Part shown: piece after piece, positions 585 through 12,116 of the stretch
How positions within the stretch are numbered: the stretch's first letter is position 1
Layout: every line of letters begins with the position of its first letter
Source: Bacteroidota bacterium
GTDB lineage: Bacteria > Bacteroidota > Ignavibacteria > Ignavibacteriales > Melioribacteraceae
DNA: 45,454 nucleotides
NCBI GenBank assembly: GCA_018818165.1
Contig: JAHISP010000049.1
Location: 1 to 45,454, forward strand
Reading direction: 5' to 3'
Translations under genes and position numbers: made by a program
Notes under the pieces: model-generated
What the model saw: only the letters and a program-made list of their open reading frames with translations
Database searches by the model: none
Told to the model about the DNA's origin: nothing

Positions 585-613
585 TTGACATAAAACAATA
601 CATAGTATATATT
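585..613 (+). promoter_or_regulatory. Sigma-70-like promoter for the ilv-leu operon leader
   Basis: TTGACA (585-590), a 17-bp spacer and TATATT (608-613) form a near-consensus promoter. The expected start point is about 620, only about 16 nt before the ATG of the small leader ORF at 636. The site also fits a Bacteroidetes-style arrangement loosely (TTTG at 584-587, then about 20 bp, then TATATTTTG at 608-616), so either sigma type could read it. It is the only strong promoter I see in front of the nine-gene cluster. Confidence 0.65.
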
Positions 614-635
614 TTGAAAAACAAATTTAAGAATT

Positions 636-785
636 ATGCAAAAAACAACTACATATACTAGTAATTTAACCTCAAAAAATGGAAATATTTTTTTGCGTAA
701 TACTATAAGTAACCAACCAATTATTATTAACAATCTGCTCGGAATTATTATTCTGAGCCTACTGGGTATTTTACTCGTAGGCTAA
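636..785 (+). CDS. Candidate branched-chain leader peptide (49 aa) of the ilv-leu operon
   Basis: ATG 636 to TAA 783-785. The first 28 residues are polar (Thr/Asn/Ser-rich). The last 21 codons (720-782) contain seven Ile, seven Leu and one Val, broken only by Asn, Gly and Ser. Six of the seven Leu codons there are CTG, CTC or CTA, although the neighbouring genes mostly use TTA, CTT and TTG. The ORF begins about 16 nt after the predicted transcription start and ends 114 nt before ilvD. Clusters of regulated codons just after a promoter and just before alternative hairpins are the classic design of attenuation leader peptides for branched-chain operons. The ribosome site is weak (AAG about 5 nt upstream). 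The alternative is a small tail-anchored membrane protein, since the C-terminal 22 residues are also hydrophobic enough. No homologue is known to me. Confidence 0.6.
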   Translation: MQKTTTYTSNLTSKNGNIFLRNTISNQPIIINNLLGIIILSLLGILLVG

Positions 786-889
786 ATAATAAAAAGTTAA
801 TCCAGATTTCATTTCACAATAATTACACATTTAAAAGATTTCGGGATTAACCTGATAACAAGCAAATAATATTGAAATGTTGTAATTAT
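737..889 (+). promoter_or_regulatory. Leader RNA with overlapping hairpins upstream of ilvD (candidate attenuator)
   Basis: Four pairings are visible by eye. A: GCTCGGAAT (737-745) with ATTCTGAGC (750-758), one G-U. B: AGCCTAC (756-762) with GTAGGCT (777-783); it shares 756-758 with A, so A and B exclude each other. C: GTTAATCC (796-803) with GGATTAAC (844-851). D: 819-832 with 875-889, 14 pairs with one bulge, ending against the GAGG ribosome site of ilvD at 890-893. The 5' strand of D sits in the loop of C. A and B lie inside the Ile/Leu-rich codons of the leader ORF, so ribosome position would select among them. No U-run follows any stem, so control of ilvD translation is more likely than a simple terminator. 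Energies were not computed. Confidence 0.5.
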
Positions 890-899
890 GAGGAAAAAT

Positions 900-2579
900 A
901 TGAGATCAGACTTAATCAAAAAGGGATTTGAAAAAGCTCCACATCGTAGTTTATTGCGAGCAACTGGAGTTATTAAGGATAATGAAGATTTTAACAAACC
1001 ATTTATTGGAGTTGTTAACTCGTATATTGACTTAATTCCTGGTCATGTTCACTTGCAAGAGTTTGGCAAATTAATTAAAGATACAATTCGTGAAGCTGGT
1101 GGAATTCCATTCGAATTTAATACAATTGGAGTAGATGACGGCATTGCAATGGGTCACATTGGAATGCGATATTCACTTCCAAGTCGTGAATTAATTGCTG
1201 ATAGCGTTGAAACTGTGGTTGAAGCACACCGTTTGGATGGAATTATTTGTATTCCAAATTGTGATAAAATTGTTCCAGGAATGTTAATGGCAGCCGTTCG
1301 AATTGATGTTCCAACAATATTTATTTCGGGTGGACCAATGAAAGCTGGTGTTACCGCTGCTGGAGAAAAAACAGATTTAGTTTCAGTATTTGAAGGAGTT
1401 GGTAAATTTAAGTCAGGGGATATTAGTGAAGAAGCGCTACTTGAACTTGAAACTGTTAGCTGTCCTGGCTGTGGTTCTTGTTCCGGAATGTTTACTGCAA
1501 ATTCAATGAATTGTTTAATGGAAGCACTTGGTATGGCTTTGCCAGGAAATGGCTCAATTTTAGCAGTTGATGCGCGAAGAAAAGAATTAGCTGTTTCTGC
1601 TGCCAAACAGATTATGACTTTGGTAAAAGAAGACATAAAACCATCCGATATTTTATCACGCGAAACATTTATGAATGCTTTTGCTTTAGATATGGCAATG
1701 GGTGGAAGCACAAATACAATTCTTCATACATTAGCAATTGCAATTGAAGCTGGCGTAGATTTTGACTTGAAAGAACTAAATGTTCTTGCAGAAAAAGTTC
1801 CATATATATGTAAAGTTAGTCCTGCTTCTCCATTTGTACACATGGAGGATGTTGAAGAAGCTGGTGGAATTTCAGCAATATTAAATGAAATATCTAAACT
1901 TCCAAATGTACTTTTTCTTGATAAAATGACCGTTACTGGAAAAACGCTTGGCGAAAATATTGCTAAATCTGAAGTAAAAAATAGAGAAGTTATTAAAAGT
2001 ATTGATGCTCCTTATTCAAGCAAAGGTGGATTAGCCGTTCTTTTTGGAAATCTTGCTCCAGAAGGCTCCATTGTTAAAACTGCAGCGGTAAACCCTTCAA
2101 TGTTGGTTCACAAGGGACCAGCAAGAATTTATGAATCACAAGATGAAGCACTTGCTGGAATAAGAAATAAAGAAATACAAGCTGGCGATGTTGTTGTTAT
2201 TAGATATGAAGGTCCGCAAGGTGGTCCTGGAATGCCCGAAATGCTTGCTCCAACAAGTGAAATTATGGGAATGGGTCTAGGAGATAAAGTTGCACTTTTA
2301 ACAGACGGTAGATTTTCTGGTGGAACTCGTGGTGCTTGTATTGGGCATATTTCTCCAGAAGCAGCAGAAAAAGGTCCTATTGCAGCGTTAAAAAATGGTG
2401 ATATAATATCAATAGATATTCCAAATAAAATTTTAGAAGTAGAACTTAGTAATGAAGAAATAAATAATAGATTAAAATTAATTCCAGATTTTGAACCAAA
2501 AATAAAAAAAGGGTACTTAGCGCGTTACTCTAAAATGGTAACCTCAGCAAGCAAAGGTGCCGTTCTTAGAATAAAATAG
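900..2579 (+). CDS. ilvD: Dihydroxy-acid dehydratase
   Basis: Dehydrates 2,3-dihydroxy-isovalerate and -methylvalerate to the 2-oxoacid precursors of valine and isoleucine. It is 559 residues, normal for IlvD/Edd enzymes. Iron-sulfur ligand motifs are visible: NCDKIVPGM with Cys121 and [10 protein letters not shown] with Cys188, 191 and 194. [10 protein letters not shown] and the C-terminal [15 protein letters not shown] are also family signatures. I place the start at ATG 900 ([23 protein letters not shown], the usual N-terminus), because GAGG at 890-893 is 6 nt upstream. The in-frame ATG at 888 has no ribosome site and lies inside a predicted helix. First structural gene of the cluster, 24 nt before ilvB. 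Confidence 0.96.
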
Positions 2580-2603
2580 AAATTATTAAATAAAGGTAAT
2601 TTT

Positions 2604-4322
2604 ATGAATACAAAGAAAAAAACAATGACAGGCGCAGATATATTTTTCGAATCACTTCGAAAAGAAGGTGTTGAAAAAATATTTGGTTATCCAGGTGGAG
2701 CTACAATTAAGCTTTATGAAAAATTGTATGATGTCAAATTTCTTGAACATATTTTAACTAGACATGAGCAAGGTGCAACACATGCTGCTGATGGTTACGC
2801 ACGTGTTTCGGGAAAAGTTGGTGTTGTTCTTGTAACTTCTGGTCCTGGAGCAACAAATACTGTTACTGGAATTGCAAATGCATATATGGATTCAGTTCCA
2901 CTTGTTATATTTACTGGGCAAGTGCCATCTCATTTAATTGGAAATGACGCATTTCAAGAAGCGGATATTGTTGGCATTACTCGTCCAATTACAAAACATA
3001 ATTTTTTAGTTAGAGATGTTAAAGATTTAGCTTCCACAATTAAGAAGGCTTTTTATATAGCTGCAACTGGCAGACCAGGACCAGTTTTGGTTGATTTGCC
3101 CAAAGATGTAATTGCGGCTGAATGTGAGTTTGAATATCCAGAAACAGTTGAAATCCGTGGTTATAAGCCAACACTAAAAGGGCACTCAAATCAAATAAAA
3201 AAAGCAGCGGAAGTTATTAGAAATGCAAAGCGTCCATTACTTTATGTTGGAGGCGGTGTAATAATGGCAAATGCTTCAAAAGAGTTAACAGAATTTGCAA
3301 AGAAAAATAATATTCCCGTTACCAATACTTTGCTTGGTTTAGGTTCTTTTCCAGGAACTGACCCTCAATTTCTTGGAATGTTAGGAATGCACGGAACTTA
3401 TTATGCAAATCAAGCAGTTAGCAATTGTGACGTGTTAATAGCCGTAGGTGCTAGATTTGATGATAGAGTAACTGGAAATACTAAAACATTTGCAAAGGAA
3501 GCATATAAAATTCACATTGATATTGACCCAACAGCAATTGATAAAAATGTAGCAATCGATTTACCAATTGTTGGAAATGCAAAAGAAATTCTAACAGAAT
3601 TATTGAAAGAACTATCTGATAAACCAAGAGAAGAAGCATGGTTTAAACAAATTGAAGATTGGAAAGATGCCTGTCCTCTTGAATATAAAAGACCCGATAA
3701 CGAATTAAGAACTCAGTTTGTTATTGAAAAAATTTCAGAAAAAACGAAAGGCGAAGCTATTATTATATCGGATGTTGGTCAACATCAAATGTGGATTGCC
3801 CAATATTATAAGTTTAATAATCCTCGTTCGCATGTTAGCAGTGGTGGTTTAGGCACAATGGGTTTTTCAATTCCAGCAGCAGTTGGCGTTGCTTTTGCAA
3901 TAAAAGATAGACCAATTGTTTCTATAAGTGGAGATGGCGGTTTTCAGATGAATATGCAAGAACTAATTACAGCTGCATATCACAAACTTCCAATTAAATT
4001 TTTTATTATGAATAATTGCTTTTTAGGAATGGTTAGACAATGGCAAGAACTATTTCACGAAGAAAAATATAGCTTCACGGATTTATGCGATAGCAATCCA
4101 ATTTTTACAAAAATAGGAACAGCATTAGGAATTGAATCTTTTTCTACTTACAATCCAGATGAAGTTGAAGAATTATTAGACAAAGTATTTGCAATAAACG
4201 ACAGACCAGTTCTAGTTGAATTTAAAGTCGCTAAAGAAGATCTTGTTTTTCCAATGGTTCCTTCTGGTGGTTCAATTTCAGATATGATTCATAAAAGAAT
4301 AAATCCAAAGGGGAAAAAATAA
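2604..4322 (+). CDS. ilvB: Acetolactate synthase large (catalytic) subunit
   Basis: TPP- and FAD-dependent acetohydroxyacid synthase, 572 aa. It condenses two pyruvates to acetolactate, or pyruvate with 2-oxobutyrate to acetohydroxybutyrate. FGYPGG near residue 28 and RHEQGATHAADGYAR (Glu55, the TPP-activating glutamate) mark the N-terminal PYR domain. The central segment has the family's GGG...VPVTNTLLGLG pattern. GDGGFQMNMQEL (Gly443-Asp444-Gly445) to Asn470-Asn471 is the Mg-TPP motif. AAAGG precedes ATG 2604. The stop overlaps the ilvN start by one base (TAATG), implying translational coupling with the regulatory subunit. Confidence 0.96.
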   Translation: MNTKKKTMTGADIFFESLRKEGVEKIFGYPGGATIKLYEKLYDVKFLEHILTRHEQGATHAADGYARVSGKVGVVLVTSGPGATNTVTGIANAYMDSVPLVIFTGQVPSHLIGNDAFQEADIVGITRPITKHNFLVRDVKDLASTIKKAFYIAATGRPGPVLVDLPKDVIAAECEFEYPETVEIRGYKPTLKGHSNQIKKAAEVIRNAKRPLLYVGGGVIMANASKELTEFAKKNNIPVTNTLLGLGSFPGTDPQFLGMLGMHGTYYANQAVSNCDVLIAVGARFDDRVTGNTKTFAKEAYKIHIDIDPTAIDKNVAIDLPIVGNAKEILTELLKELSDKPREEAWFKQIEDWKDACPLEYKRPDNELRTQFVIEKISEKTKGEAIIISDVGQHQMWIAQYYKFNNPRSHVSSGGLGTMGFSIPAAVGVAFAIKDRPIVSISGDGGFQMNMQELITAAYHKLPIKFFIMNNCFLGMVRQWQELFHEEKYSFTDLCDSNPIFTKIGTALGIESFSTYNPDEVEELLDKVFAINDRPVLVEFKVAKEDLVFPMVPSGGSISDMIHKRINPKGKK

Positions 4323-4834
4323 TGAAACATACAATATCAGTATTAGTTGAAAATACATTTGGTGCTTTTGATAGAGTTGCAACAATGTTTAGTGCAAAAG
4401 GATTTAATATTCATAGTATTTCAATTGGTGAAACAGAACAAAAAGATATTTCAAGAATGACAATAGTTACTTCGGGCGATAAGCAATTAATTGACCAAAT
4501 AGTTAAGCAACTTAATAGATTAATTGATACAATTAAAGTATCCGAATTAACTGGACAGGCAAGAACAGAAAGGGAATTAGCTCTTATTACAGTTAGTTTT
4601 CATAAAGGTGGAATTGAGGAAATTAAAAACATTAATGATATATTTAGAGGTAAAATAGTTGATATAAATAATAAAACTATGATGCTTGAAGTTACTGGAC
4701 CTCCAGAAAAAATTGATGCAATAATTAACGTTCTAATGCCTTTTGGAATTATTGAAATGGCTCGTTCTGGAACGGTTGCTCTCAAAAGAGGTGAGCAAAT
4801 TAGACCCAAAAATGAATATGTTAATAAAAAATAA
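4322..4834 (+). CDS. ilvN: Acetolactate synthase small (regulatory) subunit
   Basis: 170 aa with an N-terminal ACT domain (residues about 3-78, [17 protein letters not shown]...[10 protein letters not shown]) and a C-terminal small-subunit domain (about 85-160, [13 protein letters not shown]...[13 protein letters not shown]). This is the standard long IlvN/IlvH type. It binds IlvB, raises its activity and normally confers feedback inhibition by valine. It starts one base inside the ilvB stop and is followed 11 nt later by ilvC. Symbol ilvN versus ilvH cannot be decided from sequence alone. Confidence 0.94.
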
Positions 4835-4845
4835 GGAAACAAAAA

Positions 4846-5850
4846 ATGAAAGCTTACTATGATAATGAAGCATCGTTGGATTCACTAAAAGATAAAAATA
4901 TTGCGGTTTTGGGCTTCGGAAGTCAAGGTCATGCGCATTCATTAAACTTAAAAGAAAGTGGAATGAATGTTGTTGTAGGTGCTAGAAAAGATGGAAATTC
5001 TTGGAAAAAAGCTACCGATTTGGGAATGACAGTAATGGAAATTGATGCTGCTACAAAATGGGCTGATGTTGTTATGGTACTTTTACCTGACCAAGATCAA
5101 AAGAAAGTATATGACGAACAAATTGCTACAAATTTGGTAGAAGGCAATACACTAGTATTTGCTCACGGTTTTAATATTCACTACAAACAAATTGTTCCAC
5201 CAAGTAATATAAATGTTATGATGATTGCCCCTAAAAGTCCTGGACATTTGGTTCGCAGAACTTTTAGAGAAGGAAATGGTGTTCCATGTTTAATTGCTAT
5301 TCACAATGATTATTCTGGAAATACAAAAGAAATGGCGCTGGCTTGGGCTAAAGGAATTGGCGGTACAAGAGCTGGAGTGATTGAAACAAATTTCAAAAAT
5401 GAAACTGAAACTGATTTATTTGGCGAACAAGCCGTTCTTTGTGGTGGTTCTGCTGAATTAATAAAAGCTGGATTTGAAGTGCTTACAGAAGCTGGTTATC
5501 CTGAAGAACTTGCTTATTTTGAAGTTATGCACGAAATGAAATTAATTGTTGACCTTTATTATGAGGGTGGATTATCAAGAATGAATTATTCTGTTAGTGA
5601 CACTGCAGAATATGGTGGTTATGTAACAGGGCCAAAAGTAATTAATGCAGAATCTAAAAAAGCGATGAAAGCTGCTTTATTAGAAATTCAAGATGGCACG
5701 TTTGCAAAGAACTTTGTTGCAGAAGTAAATGGTGATAAAGCAAATATGACAAAACTCAGAAAAGAAAATAGTGAACATCCAATTGAAAAAATTGGTGCCA
5801 AATTGCGTGAAATGATGAGTTGGGTTAAAAACAAAAATGATGAGGATTAG
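4846..5850 (+). CDS. ilvC: Ketol-acid reductoisomerase (class I)
   Basis: Isomerises and reduces acetolactate or acetohydroxybutyrate to the dihydroxy acids used by IlvD. It is 334 aa, the short class I form with a single C-terminal knotted domain. The Rossmann motif [17 protein letters not shown] is at about residues 23-39. The cofactor-specificity loop reads [13 protein letters not shown], where the Ser before Trp favours NADPH by analogy with characterised enzymes. Metal ligands fall in the segment [14 protein letters not shown] and in '[20 protein letters not shown]'. Start ATG 4846 has AAGGA 8 nt upstream. Confidence 0.96.
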
Positions 5851-5853
5851 TTA

Positions 5854-6951
5854 ATGAAAAAGAAAGTTGCACTTTTACCTGGTGATGGAATTGGAACAGA
5901 AGTAATGTCTGCCGCAGTTAAACTTATGCACCATGTTGCTGAAAAATATGATTTAACAATTGAAACTACTGAAAGTCTTATGGGTGGCTGCTCTTATGAC
6001 GCTTATGGAACACCATTGACTGATGAAACAATTCAACTTTGTTATGAATCGGATGCTGTTCTTCTTGGTGCAGTTGGTGGTTATAAATGGGAAAATCTTG
6101 AACATCATTTAAAACCAGAAGCTGCTTTGCTAAAACTTAGAAAATCGTTGGGATTATACACAAATATACGTCCAGCAAAGGTTTATCCATCTTTTGTTAA
6201 TTCTTCATCGCTAAAAGAAAGTGTAATTCTTGGAACAGATTTTGTTGTTTTTCGTGAATTAACTGGTGGAATCTATTTTGGTGAACCACGTGGTTATGAT
6301 GAAAATAAAGGCTTCAATACAATGGTTTATGAAAAATATGAGATTGAACGTATTGCTCATCAAGCTTTTAAAGTTGCACAAAAAAGAAAAAAAGTACTAA
6401 CATCTGTTGATAAAGCAAACGTTTTAGAAGTATCTCAATTCTGGAGAAAAGTTGTTGAAGAAGTAAGCAAAGAATATCCAGATGTGAAATTAAACAATAT
6501 GTACGTTGATAACACGGCAATGCAAGTTGTTCGCGACCCACGACAATTTGACGTAATTGTTACTTCTAATTTATTTGGTGATATAATTAGTGACATTGCT
6601 GGAATGATTACTGGCAGTCTTGGTATGCTTCCATCAGCGAGTTTGGGCGATAAATATGCACTATACGAGCCAGTTCATGGAAGCGCTCCTGATATTGCTG
6701 GACAAAATAAAGCAAATCCTATTGCGATGATTGGCTCTGTTGCAATGATGTTCGATTTATCATTTGGAATGAAAGAAACTGCCGAGTTGATAGAAAAAGC
6801 AATTGAAAGAACTCTTGACCAAGGATTTAGAACAGTTGATATAAATCTAGATAACGGAAATGTTGTATCAACAGATAAAATGACAGAAATGATTATAAAA
6901 AACTTTGATATAATTTTTCAAGAAAATAAGGAAAGTGTATTTACACTTTAA
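5854..6951 (+). CDS. leuB: 3-isopropylmalate dehydrogenase
   Basis: NAD-dependent decarboxylating dehydrogenase of 365 aa, working on 3-isopropylmalate in leucine synthesis. In organisms using citramalate it also acts on 3-methylmalate for isoleucine. N-terminal LLPGDGIGTEV, the substrate loop LLKLRKSLGLYTNIRPAKV, the metal-binding segment TSNLFGDIISDIAGMI and the NAD motif YEPVHGSAPDIAGQNKANP identify the family. The LeuB loop 'LRKSLGLYTNIRP' separates it from isocitrate and tartrate dehydrogenases. It begins 3 nt after ilvC; its GAGG ribosome site lies inside the end of ilvC. Confidence 0.95.
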   Translation: MKKKVALLPGDGIGTEVMSAAVKLMHHVAEKYDLTIETTESLMGGCSYDAYGTPLTDETIQLCYESDAVLLGAVGGYKWENLEHHLKPEAALLKLRKSLGLYTNIRPAKVYPSFVNSSSLKESVILGTDFVVFRELTGGIYFGEPRGYDENKGFNTMVYEKYEIERIAHQAFKVAQKRKKVLTSVDKANVLEVSQFWRKVVEEVSKEYPDVKLNNMYVDNTAMQVVRDPRQFDVIVTSNLFGDIISDIAGMITGSLGMLPSASLGDKYALYEPVHGSAPDIAGQNKANPIAMIGSVAMMFDLSFGMKETAELIEKAIERTLDQGFRTVDINLDNGNVVSTDKMTEMIIKNFDIIFQENKESVFTL

Positions 6952-6962
6952 ATGGTAAAACC

Positions 6963-8543
6963 ATGAAAAATCAATTAATTATATTTGATACAACATTACG
7001 CGATGGTGAACAATCACCTGGAGCATCTTTGAGTGTTTCTGAAAAAGTTGAAATTGCCAAACAGTTGGAAAAATTAAAGGTAGATGTAATTGAAGCAGGT
7101 TTTCCAGTTTCATCTCCTGAACAATTTGAAGCAGTTGAAAGAATAGCAAACGAAGTGGGTGTTACAGTTGCTGCTCTTGCTCGAGCAAAAGAGATTGACA
7201 TCAAAGCTGCTTACGATGCAATTAAAAATGGTGAGAAGAAAAGGATTCATACATTTTCCAGCACTTCGGATTATCATATTCTTGGTAAATTTGGTGACGA
7301 TAGATATGGTAAAACTCTGGCTGAAAAGCGAGAAACTATTATTAAAATGTCTTACGATATGGTGAAGTATGCAAAATCACTAGTTGATGATGTTGAGTTT
7401 TCTGCAGAAGATGCTGGACGCACAGACATGAATTATCTTGTTGAGGTTATTGAAGCTGCAATTGATGCTGGTGCAACAACCATTAATATTCCTGATACCA
7501 CTGGATATACTTTTCCCAAAGAATTTGGTGAAAAAATTGCCTACTTAAAAAAGAAAGTTAAGAATATTGAGAACGCAATTATTAGTGTGCATTGCCATAA
7601 CGATCTTGGTCTTGCGGTTGCTAATTCCATTGCTGGTATTGAGAATGGTGCACGCCAAGTTGAATGCACAATAAATGGAATTGGTGAACGTGCTGGCAAT
7701 GCTGCACTTGAAGAAATAGTAATGGCATTAAAAGTGCGCAAAGATATTTTAGATATTGAAAGTAAGATAGAAACCAGAGAAATAATGAATACCTCAAAAC
7801 TAGTTTCTGGCTATACTGGTATTATTGTTCAACCAAACAAAGCTATTGTTGGTGAAAATGCTTTTGCGCACGAATCTGGAATTCATCAAGATGGAATGTT
7901 GAAGAATCGTGAAACTTACGAGATAATGACACCAGAAACAGTTGGAGTGCAAAATACAAAAATTGTTTTAGGAAGACACTCTGGAAGGCATGGTTTAAAA
8001 GCCCGCCTAGATGAACTTGGATATCAAGTTAATTCAGAAGATTTGAATAACATTTATAAATCCTTCACAAAATTAGCAGATAAAAAGAAGGAAGTTTATG
8101 ATGACGATTTAAGAATTCTTATGGGCGACTCCAAAAATAGAAATGAAGCAATTTATGACTTAAAATATATGCACGTCTTTGCTGGTTCGTCAACAATTCC
8201 AACCGCAACTGTTAGGATAAAAGTTGACGGAAAAGTAAATGAAGATTCTGCAACGGGTGATGGTCCAGTTGATGCTTTATTTAATGCTATAGATAGAGCA
8301 ATTGATAAGAAACCAACGGTTGAATCTTATCGAGTTCGCTCAGTAACTGCTGGAAGGGAAGCTCTTGGTGAGGTTGCTGTACGAATTAGAAAAGATGGTC
8401 GTTCTTATACTGGCATTGGTGTTTCAACTGATATTATTGAAGCAAGTGGGAAAGCATATATTCAGGCTATAAATAAAAAAGAGCACCATGAAAGAAATAA
8501 AAACAAACTTCAAAATGAAGAAGAATTAAAAGGTGAGATTTAA
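6963..8543 (+). CDS. leuA: 2-isopropylmalate synthase
   Basis: Condenses acetyl-CoA with 2-oxoisovalerate, the committed step to leucine. It is 526 aa. The TIM-barrel domain opens with FDTTLRDGEQSPGASL (Arg13-Asp14) and carries the metal-binding HCHNDLG (His210, His212) and the NGIGERAGNAALEE motif. A linker domain (GRHSGRHGLKARLDELG, about residues 340-357) leads into a LeuA allosteric dimerisation domain from about residue 385, with GDGPVDALFNAID and ALGEVAVRIR. The complete C-terminal domain implies leucine feedback inhibition. Residues about 100-125 (SDYHILGKFGDDRYGKTLAE) are longer than in common LeuA proteins. The ribosome site is weak. Confidence 0.94.
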   Translation: MKNQLIIFDTTLRDGEQSPGASLSVSEKVEIAKQLEKLKVDVIEAGFPVSSPEQFEAVERIANEVGVTVAALARAKEIDIKAAYDAIKNGEKKRIHTFSSTSDYHILGKFGDDRYGKTLAEKRETIIKMSYDMVKYAKSLVDDVEFSAEDAGRTDMNYLVEVIEAAIDAGATTINIPDTTGYTFPKEFGEKIAYLKKKVKNIENAIISVHCHNDLGLAVANSIAGIENGARQVECTINGIGERAGNAALEEIVMALKVRKDILDIESKIETREIMNTSKLVSGYTGIIVQPNKAIVGENAFAHESGIHQDGMLKNRETYEIMTPETVGVQNTKIVLGRHSGRHGLKARLDELGYQVNSEDLNNIYKSFTKLADKKKEVYDDDLRILMGDSKNRNEAIYDLKYMHVFAGSSTIPTATVRIKVDGKVNEDSATGDGPVDALFNAIDRAIDKKPTVESYRVRSVTAGREALGEVAVRIRKDGRSYTGIGVSTDIIEASGKAYIQAINKKEHHERNKNKLQNEEELKGEI

Positions 8544-8555
8544 GGAGATAAATTA

Positions 8556-9851
8556 ATGGGAATGACAATTACTGAAAAAATTCTTGCTAAATCAGCTGGA
8601 AAAGAATCAGTTAAACCTGGTGATAATATTTGGCTAAATGTAGATGTGTTAATGACTCACGATGTTTGCGGACCGCCTACGATTGGAATTTGGAAAAGTG
8701 AATTTGGTAAAGATGCAACCATTTGGGATAAAGATAAGTTGGTTATTTTTCCAGATCACTATATTTTTACAGCCAATAAACATGCAAATAGAAATGTTGA
8801 TATTCTAAGAAATTTTGCTGATGAGTATTCAATAGATAATTATTACGATGTGGGAACTTCGCGCTATAAGGGTGTTTGTCATATTGCCCTTGCTGAGGAA
8901 GGTTATAATATTCCTGGAACCGTTTTAATTGGCACAGATTCACACACTTGTACTTCAGGTGCGTTTGGAATGTTTTCTACTGGAGTTGGGAATACTGACG
9001 CTGCGTTTATTTTGGGTACTGGAAAAATATGGGAAAAAGTTCCAGAAACTATGAAATTTACTTTCACTGGAAAAATGCCAGAATACTTAACTGCAAAGGA
9101 TTTAATATTGCAAATACTCGGCGATATTACTACAGACGGTGCTACTTATCGTGCTATGGAGTTTGATGGTGAAGCTGTGTTTTCTCTTTCTATGAACGAA
9201 AGAATGACTCTTTGCAACATGGCTATTGAAGGCGGTGGAATGAATGGAATAATTCCAGTTGATGCAGTAACAGAAGATTATTTACAAGAAAGAACTAATA
9301 AAGCTTATGATAAATTTTACAGTGACGAAGATGCTGTTTATCATAGTAAATATGAATACAATGTCGAAAACCTTGTTCCATTAGTAGCTAAGCCACATAG
9401 TCCTGACAACAAAGCTGCAGTTAGAGAAGTTGAAGGAACTCCTATTACAAAGGCATATATCGGTTCTTGTACTGGTGGAAAAATATCTGATTTTCAGTTT
9501 GCTGCAAAAATATTGTATGATAAAAAGGTTGCTGTAACTACTTTTATTGTTCCAGCAAGTACAGAAGTTGCAAAGCAATTGGAAACTGAGATGTATAAAG
9601 ATAAATCGTTAAAAGAAATCTTCGAATCAGCTGGTGCTGTAATTGCAAAATCATCTTGTGCTGCTTGTCTAGGTGGACCAGACGATACAATTGGAAGAAC
9701 TGTTGGAAACGATGTAACAATTTCAACAACCAATAGAAATTTTCCAGGTAGGATGGGAAGCAAACAAGCAGAAGTATATTTGGCTTCACCACTTACAGTT
9801 GCTGCTTCTGCAGTTAAAGGAGTTATAACAGACCCACGTGATTTAATGTAA
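8556..9851 (+). CDS. leuC: 3-isopropylmalate dehydratase large subunit
   Basis: Aconitase-family [4Fe-4S] subunit, 431 aa. This length belongs to the LeuC2/homoaconitase-like class (about 420 aa) rather than the longer enterobacterial LeuC. Visible signatures are GTDSHTCTSGAFGMFSTGVGN and three cluster cysteines: Cys305 in IGSCTGG, then Cys368 and Cys371 in CAACLGG. With LeuD it isomerises 2- to 3-isopropylmalate. By analogy with other citramalate-pathway organisms it probably also converts citramalate to 3-methylmalate. AAGGAG 7-8 nt upstream supports ATG 8556. Confidence 0.93.
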   Translation: MGMTITEKILAKSAGKESVKPGDNIWLNVDVLMTHDVCGPPTIGIWKSEFGKDATIWDKDKLVIFPDHYIFTANKHANRNVDILRNFADEYSIDNYYDVGTSRYKGVCHIALAEEGYNIPGTVLIGTDSHTCTSGAFGMFSTGVGNTDAAFILGTGKIWEKVPETMKFTFTGKMPEYLTAKDLILQILGDITTDGATYRAMEFDGEAVFSLSMNERMTLCNMAIEGGGMNGIIPVDAVTEDYLQERTNKAYDKFYSDEDAVYHSKYEYNVENLVPLVAKPHSPDNKAAVREVEGTPITKAYIGSCTGGKISDFQFAAKILYDKKVAVTTFIVPASTEVAKQLETEMYKDKSLKEIFESAGAVIAKSSCAACLGGPDDTIGRTVGNDVTISTTNRNFPGRMGSKQAEVYLASPLTVAASAVKGVITDPRDLM

Positions 9852-9875
9852 TTTAATAGAAAAAATGGATTTATA

Positions 9876-10436
9876 ATGGAAAATATAGTAATTGGAAAAG
9901 CATTTGTTTTGGGAAACAATATTGATACTGATCAAATAATTCCCGCAGAACATCTTGTTTATAGTATGGATGATGAAAACGAAGCAAAAATGTATGGTAA
10001 ATATGCTCTTTCGAGTGTTCCAAAAGAATATTCTGGATTACCGTTGGGAAATATACCATTTGTTGAAGAAGGGAAATATGAATCAGAATATCAAATTATT
10101 GTTGGAGGTTCAAATTTTGGCTGTGGCTCTTCGCGAGAACATGCTCCTTATGCACTTATGAAAGCTGGTGCTAAAGTAATTATTGCAGAATCTTATGCTC
10201 GAATTTTTTATCGTAATTCTGTTGATGGTGGCTTTGTTATTCCATACGAAATAAAAGAAAAACTGAATGAAAAAGTTAAAACTGGGGATGTATTAAAGAT
10301 TGATATTGAAAATAATATTTTAGTCAATAATTCAACTGGAGAAACTTTTAGTTTAAATCCACTTGGAGATGTATTGCCAATAGTTTCAGCAGGTGGACTT
10401 TTCAAGTATGCCCGAAAAAGTGGAATGATTGAATAA
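9876..10436 (+). CDS. leuD: 3-isopropylmalate dehydratase small subunit
   Basis: Swivelling-domain partner of LeuC, 186 aa, of the short LeuD2 type matching the LeuC class next to it. GNNIDTDQIIPAEHL near the N-terminus and NFGCGSSREHAPYALMKAG in the middle are the substrate-binding loops of the family. FYRNSVDGGF is equivalent to the usual FFRNxINxG segment. It starts 24 nt after leuC with GGA 7 nt upstream. It is followed by a 120-nt gap holding short tandem repeats before cimA. Confidence 0.93.
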   Translation: MENIVIGKAFVLGNNIDTDQIIPAEHLVYSMDDENEAKMYGKYALSSVPKEYSGLPLGNIPFVEEGKYESEYQIIVGGSNFGCGSSREHAPYALMKAGAKVIIAESYARIFYRNSVDGGFVIPYEIKEKLNEKVKTGDVLKIDIENNILVNNSTGETFSLNPLGDVLPIVSAGGLFKYARKSGMIE

Positions 10437-10466
10437 ATTATTGTTTTCAAAATAGAATTTAGAAAA

Positions 10467-10502
10467 AAGATTAGGAGTAAGATTAAGAGAAAGATTAAGA
10501 CA
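10467..10502 (+). repeat. Three 12-bp tandem repeats between leuD and cimA
   Basis: Three adjacent copies at 10467-10478, 10479-10490 and 10491-10502 share the core AAGATTA and differ mainly in the last five bases. The next 50 bases also look low-complexity and semi-repetitive (ATATCTAACATCTCAAATC). There is no ribosome site in front of cimA here, so this spacer may be a degenerate dispersed element inside the operon. Confidence 0.55.
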
Positions 10503-10556
10503 TAACAATTCGTAATTTCTTGTGTCTCATATCTAACATCTCAAATCTAAAATAAA

Positions 10557-12116
10557 ATGAAAAAATTAGAATTATTTGATACAACTTTAAGAGATGGTAC
10601 TCAAGGCGAAGGCGTTAATATTTCCATCCATGATAAATTAGAAATAACAAAAAGATTGGATGAATTTGGAATTAACATTATTGAAGGTGGTTGGCCAGGC
10701 AGTAATCCAAAAGATGAGGAGTATTTTGAAATAGTTCAAAACTTGAAACTTAAAAATTCCAAGATATGTGCGTTTGGCTCAACAGCCCGCTATCCCGATA
10801 GAATTGAAAGCGATAATAACTTACTCAAACTTGTGGCTTCAAATGCTCCAATTATAACAATATTTGGAAAAACTTGGCGTTTCCATTCAGAAAAAACACT
10901 TGGATTAACAGATGAACAAAATGAAGAGTTGATTTATAAATCTGTTAAATTCCTTGTAGAAAAAGGTCGTAGAGTTATTTTTGATGCCGAGCATTTTTAC
11001 GATGGTTATAAAGATGATGCAAATTTTGCTATTAAAATGTGTAAAGCAGCAGTAAAAGGTGGAGCAGATACAATTGTACTTTGTGATACAAACGGTGGTT
11101 CGCTTCCTCACGAAGTTTATGATATTACTGAAAATACGCTAAAACAAATCGAAATACCTATTGGAATTCACGCTCATAACGATGGCGGAGTTGCAGTTGC
11201 AAATTCAATTGCTGCGGTTCAAGCTGGTGCAACTCACGTTCAAGGCACAATGAATGGAGTAGGTGAGCGTTGTGGAAATGCTGACCTTTGTACAATAATT
11301 CCAAATCTAATTTTGAAAATGAAAAGGGAAACAGTCTTTGATTTGAATTTGACCAATTTAACTTCACTCTCTAATTTTGTTTACGAAATGATGAACGTTT
11401 CACCAAACACACGAGCGCCATTTGTTGGTAAATCTGCATTCGCTCATAAAGGTGGAATTCATGTTAGTTCGGTGTTAAAAGATAGCAGAATGTATGAGCA
11501 TCTTGAACCAAACGCGGTTGGAAATATTCAGCGAGTTATTGTTTCTGATTTATCAGGACAGAGTAATATTAGATATAAAGCTGCAAAACTTGGAATTGAA
11601 TTGCCAGAAGATCAGGAATTCAATAAAAAATTCGTTCATTTTCTAAAGGAACTTGAGTATAAAGGATTTCAGTTTGATGGCGCAGAAGCATCTTTTGAAC
11701 TTTTACTAAGAAACGAACTAAGTGAATTACCAACGTACTTTAATGTAACTTATGCAAAAGTTAATGTCATGTTTGATGACAAAGGATCAGAATATTCCGA
11801 AGCAGTGTTAAAGGTTGAAGTAAATGGTGAAGTTGAGCACACCGCAGCTGAGGGACATGGTCCAGTAAATGCACTTGATAAAGCATTACACAAGGCTTTA
11901 AGAAGATTTTATTCAGAATTGGATGATGTTCATTTGATTGATTACAAAGTGCGCGTGCTTGGTGAAGGCGATGGAACTGCAGCAAAAGTGCGTGTATTAA
12001 TTGAATCGGGAGACAAAAATAATACTTGGTCAACAGTTGGAGTTTCTGAAAATATTATTCAAGCATCATTACAAGCACTTACTGATAGTATCAACTATAG
12101 ATTATTTAAAAGCTAA
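10557..12116 (+). CDS. cimA: (R)-citramalate synthase
   Basis: 519 aa, homologous to LeuA but of the CimA family. The opening LELFDTTLRDGTQGEGVNIS and 'IIEGGWPGSNPKDEEYF' are hallmarks of this group. Metal-binding HAHND (His205, His207) and NGVGERCGNADL complete the barrel, and a C-terminal LeuA-type regulatory domain follows ('AAEGHGPVNALDKAL'). CimA joins pyruvate and acetyl-CoA to citramalate, the entry to 2-oxobutyrate and isoleucine without threonine. Its place behind leuBACD fits, since LeuCD and LeuB can finish the conversion. No Shine-Dalgarno precedes ATG 10557. A strong hairpin follows the stop. Confidence 0.92.
   Translation: MKKLELFDTTLRDGTQGEGVNISIHDKLEITKRLDEFGINIIEGGWPGSNPKDEEYFEIVQNLKLKNSKICAFGSTARYPDRIESDNNLLKLVASNAPIITIFGKTWRFHSEKTLGLTDEQNEELIYKSVKFLVEKGRRVIFDAEHFYDGYKDDANFAIKMCKAAVKGGADTIVLCDTNGGSLPHEVYDITENTLKQIEIPIGIHAHNDGGVAVANSIAAVQAGATHVQGTMNGVGERCGNADLCTIIPNLILKMKRETVFDLNLTNLTSLSNFVYEMMNVSPNTRAPFVGKSAFAHKGGIHVSSVLKDSRMYEHLEPNAVGNIQRVIVSDLSGQSNIRYKAAKLGIELPEDQEFNKKFVHFLKELEYKGFQFDGAEASFELLLRNELSELPTYFNVTYAKVNVMFDDKGSEYSEAVLKVEVNGEVEHTAAEGHGPVNALDKALHKALRRFYSELDDVHLIDYKVRVLGEGDGTAAKVRVLIESGDKNNTWSTVGVSENIIQASLQALTDSINYRLFKS

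Follow-up and report, generated by a model that had tools for sequence, protein, structure and literature searches.

A candidate ribosome-sensing leader with a long-range helix upstream of the ilv-leu-cimA operon in Ignavibacteriales

The window, meaning the whole 45,454-nucleotide stretch analyzed here (contig JAHISP010000049.1 of assembly GCA_018818165.1, from a bacterium of the Ignavibacteriales family Melioribacteraceae), carries a branched-chain amino acid operon whose genes, from 900 to 12116, were assigned by NCBIfam as ilvD-ilvB-ilvN-ilvC-leuB-leuA-leuC-leuD-cimA (citramalate synthase). The leader of this operon holds a short open reading frame (ORF) that ends in a run of Ile, Leu and Val codons. 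We conclude that the leader is probably a ribosome-sensing attenuator of the ilv-leu-cimA operon, with a long-range helix, P1, as its OFF helix and a readout that in the window's genus probably uses no canonical terminator. Comparison of relatives shows a conserved leader ORF, promoter, codon bias, local hairpin (helix C) and, across the order, P1; regulation by starvation and P1 as the OFF state are put forward as the likely function of this arrangement. Sensing of Ile, Leu and Val by the ribosome through the leader peptide is strongly supported: the leader is conserved, its codons are chosen in a distinctive way, and relatives have parallel leaders for trp and his.

In the proposed mechanism, a ribosome supplied with plentiful Ile, Leu and Val would reach the stop codon and leave the codon strand free. 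With the freed strand P1 could form, gathering the entire leader into a single branched structure that abuts the start of ilvD, and expression would fall. With any of the three amino acids short, the ribosome would wait on the early control codons and occupy the 5' strand of P1, so that P1 could not form and the operon would be expressed. The readout in the window's genus would be blocked translation initiation, or a non-canonical one such as Rho. Some relatives have a T-tract shortly downstream of P1, which may turn the helix into a long-range terminator. The features of the leader are collected in Table 1.

Table 1. Features of the ilvD leader region in the window.
Feature	Position	Strand	Remarks
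Promoter: TTGACA 585-590, 17-nt spacer, TATATT 608-613	585..613	+	read from sequence
Leader ORF, 49 codons, Ile/Leu/Val control codons at 3' end, stop codon TAA 783-785	636..785	+
P1 5' arm (long-range helix), made of control codons: CAATTATTATT 718-728; TGCTCGG 736-742	718..742	+	covariation across order; minimum-energy fold at lengths 876-886
Hairpin A, overlaps P1 arm, -11.9 kcal/mol	737..758	+	weak covariation, z -3.4
Hairpin B over last leader codons, ends beside stop codon, -14.8 kcal/mol	757..782	+	covariation, z -5.4 and -4.0
Helix C 5' arm (segment 2), 10 nt downstream of leader stop	796..806	+	z -9.6
Helix D 5' arm	818..832	+	not kept in closest relatives
Helix C 3' arm (segment 3)	841..851	+
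P1 3' arm (segment 4): CTGATAACAAGCA 852-864; AATAATATTG 865-874	852..874	+	15 nt upstream of Shine-Dalgarno site as delimited
Helix D 3' arm, directly before Shine-Dalgarno site	875..889	+
Shine-Dalgarno site GAGG of ilvD	890..893	+	sequence
ilvD, first operon gene	900..2579	+	NCBIfam; same start region in relatives

Leader ORF and control codons

An earlier note on this DNA, made from its letters alone, had proposed a promoter followed by a 49-codon ORF rich in Ile, Leu and Val codons, and these elements were recovered as described. Transcription probably starts near 620. The promoter pattern TTGAC[AT]-N17-TA stands upstream of 55 of 56 distinct leaders, compared with 169 of 11200 shuffles. 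The last 21 codons of the leader ORF comprise 7 Ile, 7 Leu and 1 Val. The codons CTG, CTC and CTA make up six of seven Leu codons there, as the note had counted, and 6/9 in the whole leader ORF; their shares of Leu codons in 13 window ORFs (the nine operon genes and four others) are 1%, 3% and 9%, respectively. An ATG at 888 is in the ilvD frame, yet it lies upstream of the Shine-Dalgarno (SD) sequence GAGG, and the ilvD start was taken as 900; the SD lies 8-10 nt upstream of the start in 51 of 53 relatives.

Homologs of ilvD were sought in 58 relatives (34 matches, E 0.001) and in the genomes of the order (60/164, 1e-150), class (51/391, 1e-180) and phylum (103/392, 1e-150). With 60 matches among 164 order genomes, most Ignavibacteriales genomes are therefore without this ilvD type. 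The region upstream of ilvD was read in 57 of the 60 order genomes, the other three being without an ilvD start. A leader was scored when at least 13 of the last 24 codons of an ORF were Ile, Leu or Val, a threshold chosen after the first sequences had been seen. Such an ORF was present in 55 of 57 genomes, compared with 0/57 control upstream regions (28 trpE, 29 hisG) and 33 of 2850 shuffles. Removal of L121 and L133 (no leader) and of L049 and L145 (a shorter ORF, apparently one genome; the 55/57 include L145 among the leaders) left the 56 distinct leaders used below, which include two records titled Calditrichaceae/Calditrichia (L037, L043). The first half of the leader differs widely among species, and an end of the type LGIIILSLLGILLVG recurs.

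Codon choice in the control region is also distinctive among the 34 divergent species. Within the final 24 codons of the leader, 42% of Leu codons are CTA and 1/219 are TTG, compared with 5% and 17%, respectively, in ilvD. Ile, Leu and Val together fill 66% of these 24 positions, whereas their share is 25% at the N-terminus of the leader and 24% in ilvD. Being hydrophobic, the last ~21 residues could cross a membrane, which would suit a real small membrane protein whose Ile/Leu/Val run is a transmembrane segment, with any regulation incidental. We regard this as most improbable: N-terminal halves vary widely while the control-codon run and the rare CTA codons persist, Trp-run and His-run peptides occupy the same place before the trp and his genes of relatives, and the two P1 strands change together.

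Beyond the order, a laxer threshold of at least 11 Ile, Leu or Val in the last 24 codons was applied, and the resulting counts stand without control regions. An ORF of this kind lies upstream of ilvD in 8 of 11 further loci of the class, in 14 of 18 loci of Chlorobiaceae type (one, L183, at another place) and in 12 of 14 loci of other families of the phylum. The term Chlorobiaceae type is a family name inferred from an ORF common to L048 and L165. Four Marinimicrobia loci have the ORF and no helix C of the GGTCAAYC type described below. A different, sequence-conserved peptide, MNxLFSLSLIVVxxAVLIIKDxFxVRMATVRVK, was observed upstream of ilvD in 20 Chloroflexi loci (L062, L065, L066, L068, L070, L071, L075, L079, L083, L084, L086, L087, L091, L092, L094, L099, L100, L105, L106 and L108), and may be another branched-chain leader.

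Helices of the leader and their covariation

The RNA from leader to ilvD folds at -51.3 kcal/mol, compared with -37.05 (standard deviation 4.06) for shuffled sequences (z -3.51). The model of the earlier note, which comprised hairpins A and B within the control codons and helices C and D downstream, needs revision, and the long-range helix P1 had been missed. Four segments can be seen by eye in relatives: segment 1 in the leader, typically CTAGGGATT; segments 2 and 3, which pair as helix C, GGTCAATCCC and GGGATTGACC; and segment 4 after C, AACCCTA running into TATATCTGAAG. P1 consists of segment 1 and its upstream codons paired with segment 4.

Because the P1 arms shift register in a MAFFT alignment, covariation was assessed by swap tests, in which the pairing energy of each species' own arms is compared with that of arms exchanged between species and no alignment is needed. 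For P1, the stretches compared were delimited without regard to pairing, the landmarks being the leader stop, the end of C and the start codon. Across 53 leaders, own arms paired better for P1 in 46 (z -11.9) and for C in 50 (z -13.0), with control pairings at -0.1 to -2.5; L008, L037 and L146 were omitted, helix C being either not found or placed elsewhere by the automatic search. In the 34 divergent species the own pairing beat the mean swap in 29 for P1 (z -10.4) and in 32 for C (z -9.6). The remaining pairings in this set gave -5.1 for 1:2, -5.1 for a D-like helix, -4.0 for B and -2.4 for 3:4 (controls -0.1 to -1.5). With finer segments (n=30; L003, L008, L013, L027, L037 and L146 lack a segment-3 anchor and were omitted), the scores were -8.1 for outer P1, -6.9 for C, -4.4 for inner P1, -3.5 for 1:2 and -3.2 for 3:4, with controls down to -2.3. 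GC-rich species add to the own scores in this test, and signals weaker than about z -3 were not relied on, as control pairings reached -2.5 (C5 with the SD) and -2.3. In these tests P1 is thus found to covary well beyond control pairings across the order. RNAalifold on a MAFFT alignment of the 56 leaders returned a consensus of C, helices at A and B, and partial P1.

The four helices of the earlier note fared unequally. Covariation supports C and B, while A covaries weakly and D is not kept in the closest relatives (Table 1). Hairpins A and B overlap by two bases and had been described as mutually exclusive; this was not borne out, as both were present in the minimum-energy fold at all ten transcript lengths, and their treatment as alternatives was rejected. 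Of the helices described as interlocking, C is conserved, and D is strong in the window (-11.4 kcal/mol) and directly precedes the SD. Helix D falls to -3.8, -2.9 and -2.7 kcal/mol in L002, L003 and L004, and it was rejected as a conserved element for these closest relatives; L005 has a partial substitute at -8.9 kcal/mol. Folding of the nascent window transcript from 717 gave P1, A, B and C together at lengths 876-886 (-35.2 kcal/mol).

Helix C keeps its type of sequence in distant families, to a degree that a plain stem does not call for: GGTCAAYC..GGGTTGACC was found in seven of the 14 loci from other families within the phylum (L170, L172, L173, L174, L179, L180, L181). This excess could suggest that a metabolite or protein binds C in a riboswitch-like manner, with the ORF secondary. 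Such a reading is improbable, although somewhat less so than a membrane protein. In family f5 of the same class, the C position holds GCCAGAGG..CCTCTGGC, a different sequence in a similar layout, and a riboswitch-like reading leaves the codon bias unexplained. A search of the window and 20 relatives' loci at Rfam gathering thresholds returned SAM riboswitches and a tRNA alone, with no family on the ilv leaders, and a permissive Rfam search of L001, L024 and L131 gave no match to the leader. The SAM riboswitch of the window (RF00162, 87.5 bits) lies at 308-413 on the minus strand and serves a divergent gene at the window's left edge; one is also found beside ilvD in loci L002, L003, L006 and L008.

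Ribosome position, terminators and readout

The effect of ribosome position was modeled in 53 species by partition-function folding with the ribosome as a 29-nt mask. Mean P1 pairs were 16.0 with no ribosome and 10.7 with a ribosome at the stop codon, compared with 7.6 at 27 codons before the stop, 3.3-4.3 at 18-24 codons and 6.7 at 15 codons. Single species depart from this mean; in L010, P1 is lost with the ribosome at the stop codon as well (0.99 pairs). A wait on the early control codons would thus be predicted to disrupt P1 most.

The ilv leaders are set apart from other leaders of the same relatives by their terminators. The earlier note had remarked that no U-run follows the helices, and this observation was confirmed and sharpened: the longest T-run in 786-899 is three, and a scan for short-loop (3-12 nt) hairpins followed by a U-run found a canonical terminator in 0/56 ilv leaders of the order, while the same scan was positive for 27 of the 28 trp leaders and for all 29 his leaders. 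The trpE and hisG genes were sought in 39 relatives, and 30 loci of each were read (L190-L219 for trpE, L220-L249 for hisG), of which 28 and 29, respectively, had enough upstream sequence; L209, L219 and L245, with a match near the contig edge, were omitted from the counts. The trp and his leaders have runs of their own end-product codons. A reading frame with WW precedes trpE in 27/28, hisG in 1/29 and ilvD in 1/57 loci, and WWW precedes trpE in 18/28; HH precedes hisG in 29/29, trpE in 0/28 and ilvD in 4/57, and HHH precedes hisG in 22/29. The window's own genome has a trp leader locus (L206) and a his leader locus (L240). With terminators in trp and his leaders and none in 56 ilv leaders, the ilv readout therefore differs from that of trp and his, and it would be translation initiation, a long-range or non-canonical terminator, or Rho. 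Outside the order, the scan found a terminator in one of eight family f5 loci and in none of ten from other families of the phylum. Among loci of Chlorobiaceae type it found 11 in 18, where shuffles expect 0.8 and one of the 11 terminator-like sites (L165) lies elsewhere. A terminator may thus exist in ilv leaders of Chlorobiaceae type.

These data bear on transcription attenuation by a non-canonical terminator, in which P1 with a T-tract (or Rho) would end transcription when the leader is translated through, and a stalled ribosome would block the 5' strand of the terminator. The intrinsic terminators of the trp and his leaders and the terminator-like sites of the Chlorobiaceae type favor it, as does a run of at least five T starting no more than 9 nt from the P1 3' end in 10 of 53 leaders, together with a T7 in L041 and L122 that the duplex prediction drew into the stem. 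None of these runs is in the window's genus, which is without a T-tract after P1. The P1 stem is moreover A-U rich and closes a multibranched loop, and the T content at its 3' end is only marginally raised (4.09 compared with 3.76 per 8 nt elsewhere, a value reached in 252 of 5000 draws). A T-tract after P1 was accordingly rejected as a general terminator. A motif-based count of T after P1 was set aside, as its pattern fitted 16/56 sequences and sometimes the SD instead of the P1 arm. We hold termination at P1 to be a genuine candidate, but the less probable one beside P1 as OFF helix with a readout other than a canonical terminator.

A second alternative is the classical four-segment logic, in which 1:2 and 3:4 would pair when the leader is translated, with segment 2 covered once the ribosome reaches the stop, and a stall on segment 1 would instead allow 2:3 (C). 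In 54 of 56 leaders the distance from the leader stop to helix C is 3-11 nt, so that a stop-codon ribosome would cover it, and with the mask placed there the fraction of C pairs formed drops from 0.68 to 0.14. The pairings 1:2 and 3:4 do beat swapped partners in the finer-segment test. Both are little above the strongest control pairing there and far weaker than C, and no U-run follows the 3:4 hairpin. This logic is rather unlikely, slightly more so than termination at P1.

Several observations weigh against the proposed mechanism. The first concern the window itself. From 890 to 915, D and a short 3:4 hairpin replace P1 and C in the window transcript (-35.3 kcal/mol), and the full-length window leader at equilibrium holds almost no P1 (0.03 pairs). 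P1 is A-T rich in the window's genus and weak there, with own arms at -12.2 and swapped arms at -10.1 kcal/mol (n=5); the P1 claim for the window species therefore leans on the order as a whole. Other points concern the comparison. RNAalifold on a 25-sequence MAFFT alignment recovered C alone, with changes on both sides at two of its eight pairs, and no P1. In each species the best hairpin had been chosen to supply the C arms, so the own-pair z of C is flattered, though the RNAalifold result finds C independently. Loci L121 and L133 (L039), two genomes of one genus, carry this ilvD without an Ile/Leu/Val-rich leader ORF.

The remaining points concern the ribosome and the SD. Stalls in the last ~12 codons leave P1 free (11.9-15.2 pairs), though these codons are also Ile, Leu and Val. 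SD openness was 0.32-0.38 in every ribosome state across the 53 species, so that folding predicts no SD masking; sequestration of the SD switched by stall site is unsupported in this folding. Pairing of the leader with the SD gave a swap z of -1.5 in 53 leaders and hence no support, a result to be read with the conserved SD in mind, which limits what covariation can show. The predicted 3' end of P1 lies a median of 8 nt upstream of the SD across the order. In several relatives a hairpin (F) directly precedes the SD (z -4.0, n=52; -3.1, n=33). The hairpins that would form when P1 is blocked, F in relatives and D in the window, adjoin the SD, which is the wrong sign for simple masking. By eye, a CTGAA..TTCAG hairpin stands before the SD in L009, L010, L018, L019, L020, L025 and L033, its 5' arm common with the P1 3' arm. 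The proposal of the earlier note that stalling may control ilvD translation rather than termination is therefore left with mixed support: the missing canonical terminator agrees with it, and the flat SD openness does not.

Relation to known attenuators and leader elements

Classical ribosome-mediated attenuators are known for ilvGMEDA, ilvBN, leu, trp and his (Elf and Ehrenberg, 2005, PMC1183508). That paper names CUA as the Leu codon best suited to control in E. coli and cites work in Salmonella, where a change from CUA to CUG reduced sensitivity. The present leader resembles the attenuators treated there in that an ORF with end-product control codons, including rare CUA Leu codons, follows soon after the promoter. 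It differs from their intrinsic terminator with a U-run, since the short-loop scan, which long-range terminators are outside the reach of, found none in the 56 ilv leaders. The trp and his leaders of relatives likewise have end-product codon runs before a biosynthetic gene, and differ from the ilv leader by their canonical terminators. Classical attenuators have a helix that a ribosome on the stop codon would cover, and helix C is placed likewise here.

Other upstream ORFs and motifs can be set apart from this leader. Narunsky et al. (2023, PMC10272879) describe the ilvB-II, ilvB-OMG and ilvB motifs, in which ilv genes are likewise preceded by ORFs with many branched-chain codons. As described in the parts of that paper on these motifs, they lie before ilvB and in other lineages (Corynebacterium, Leptospira; various phyla for ilvB-OMG). 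Weinberg et al. (2010, PMC2864571) list the Bacteroid-trp motif (RF01692), a candidate cis-regulatory RNA from Bacteroidetes; going by its name in that list, it precedes trp genes and would concern tryptophan, not branched-chain amino acids. The leaders of four trp loci (L193, L202, L203, L206) gave no Rfam match, and none to RF01692. In their introduction of a Firmicutes case, Naville and Gautheret (2010, PMC2965389) state that leader peptides had, to their knowledge, been shown only in Proteobacteria and Actinobacteria.

Among the papers listed by a search of open literature on leader-peptide control in Ignavibacteria, Chlorobi and Bacteroidetes, there was no description of this leader, nor of leader control of ilv-leu, trp or his in Ignavibacteriales. 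Candidate attenuators have reportedly been noted in Bacteroidetes/Chlorobi. The statement of the earlier note that no such leader is described in this lineage stands for Ignavibacteria within that search, and is to be narrowed for the wider group by those candidates and by the Bacteroid-trp motif.

The nearest architecture is the LEU element of Actinobacteria. Upstream of leuA, its run of Leu codons forms a base stem with the SD of leuA, around a pseudoknot (Seliverstov et al., 2005, PMC1262725). In both cases the base stem of a compact RNA, close to the ribosome site of the first gene, is built from a run of control codons, and no terminator is mentioned in the passages of that paper on LEU. 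The two differ in several respects, as far as those passages describe LEU. There the Leu run pairs with the SD itself, before leuA; here mixed Ile, Leu and Val codons pair just before the SD, before ilvD and in another phylum, and a stem of codon run and SD was not found (z and distance to the SD as above). P1 encloses hairpins B and C, whereas the LEU stem runs around its pseudoknot. For a corresponding internal pseudoknot, pairing of the C loop with the stretch before the SD gave z -4.0 in the 53 leaders (own better in 30) and -5.1 in the divergent set (24/34), with the largest excesses in few species and at no common place; pairing of this kind may nevertheless exist in general. The likeness to LEU is one of plan. 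A caution for the present case comes from the same paper, which cites leader-codon mutations not behaving as classical attenuation predicts.

The likeness suggests a bolder reading, in which the leader is a terminator-free, ribosome-gated analogue of a riboswitch. The control codons would be one strand of the base stem P1 set against the ilvD ribosome site, a waiting ribosome would open the operon, and the device would be at least as old as the order and perhaps as old as the phylum, with trp and his controlled by ordinary terminators. We advance this tentatively, at somewhat less than even confidence. The findings point to leader-peptide control of ilv-leu, trp and his in Ignavibacteriales that carry these genes. 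Within one genome group, the same ribosome signal would have two readouts, terminators for trp and his and none for ilv, which makes the question of a terminator-less branched-chain leader directly testable. P1 would provide a covariation-backed case in which control codons themselves make up a strand of a long-range stem. The principle of sensing is known, and the wiring without the usual stop signal looks new; if the bolder reading is true, a similar plan evolved separately as the LEU element of Actinobacteria.
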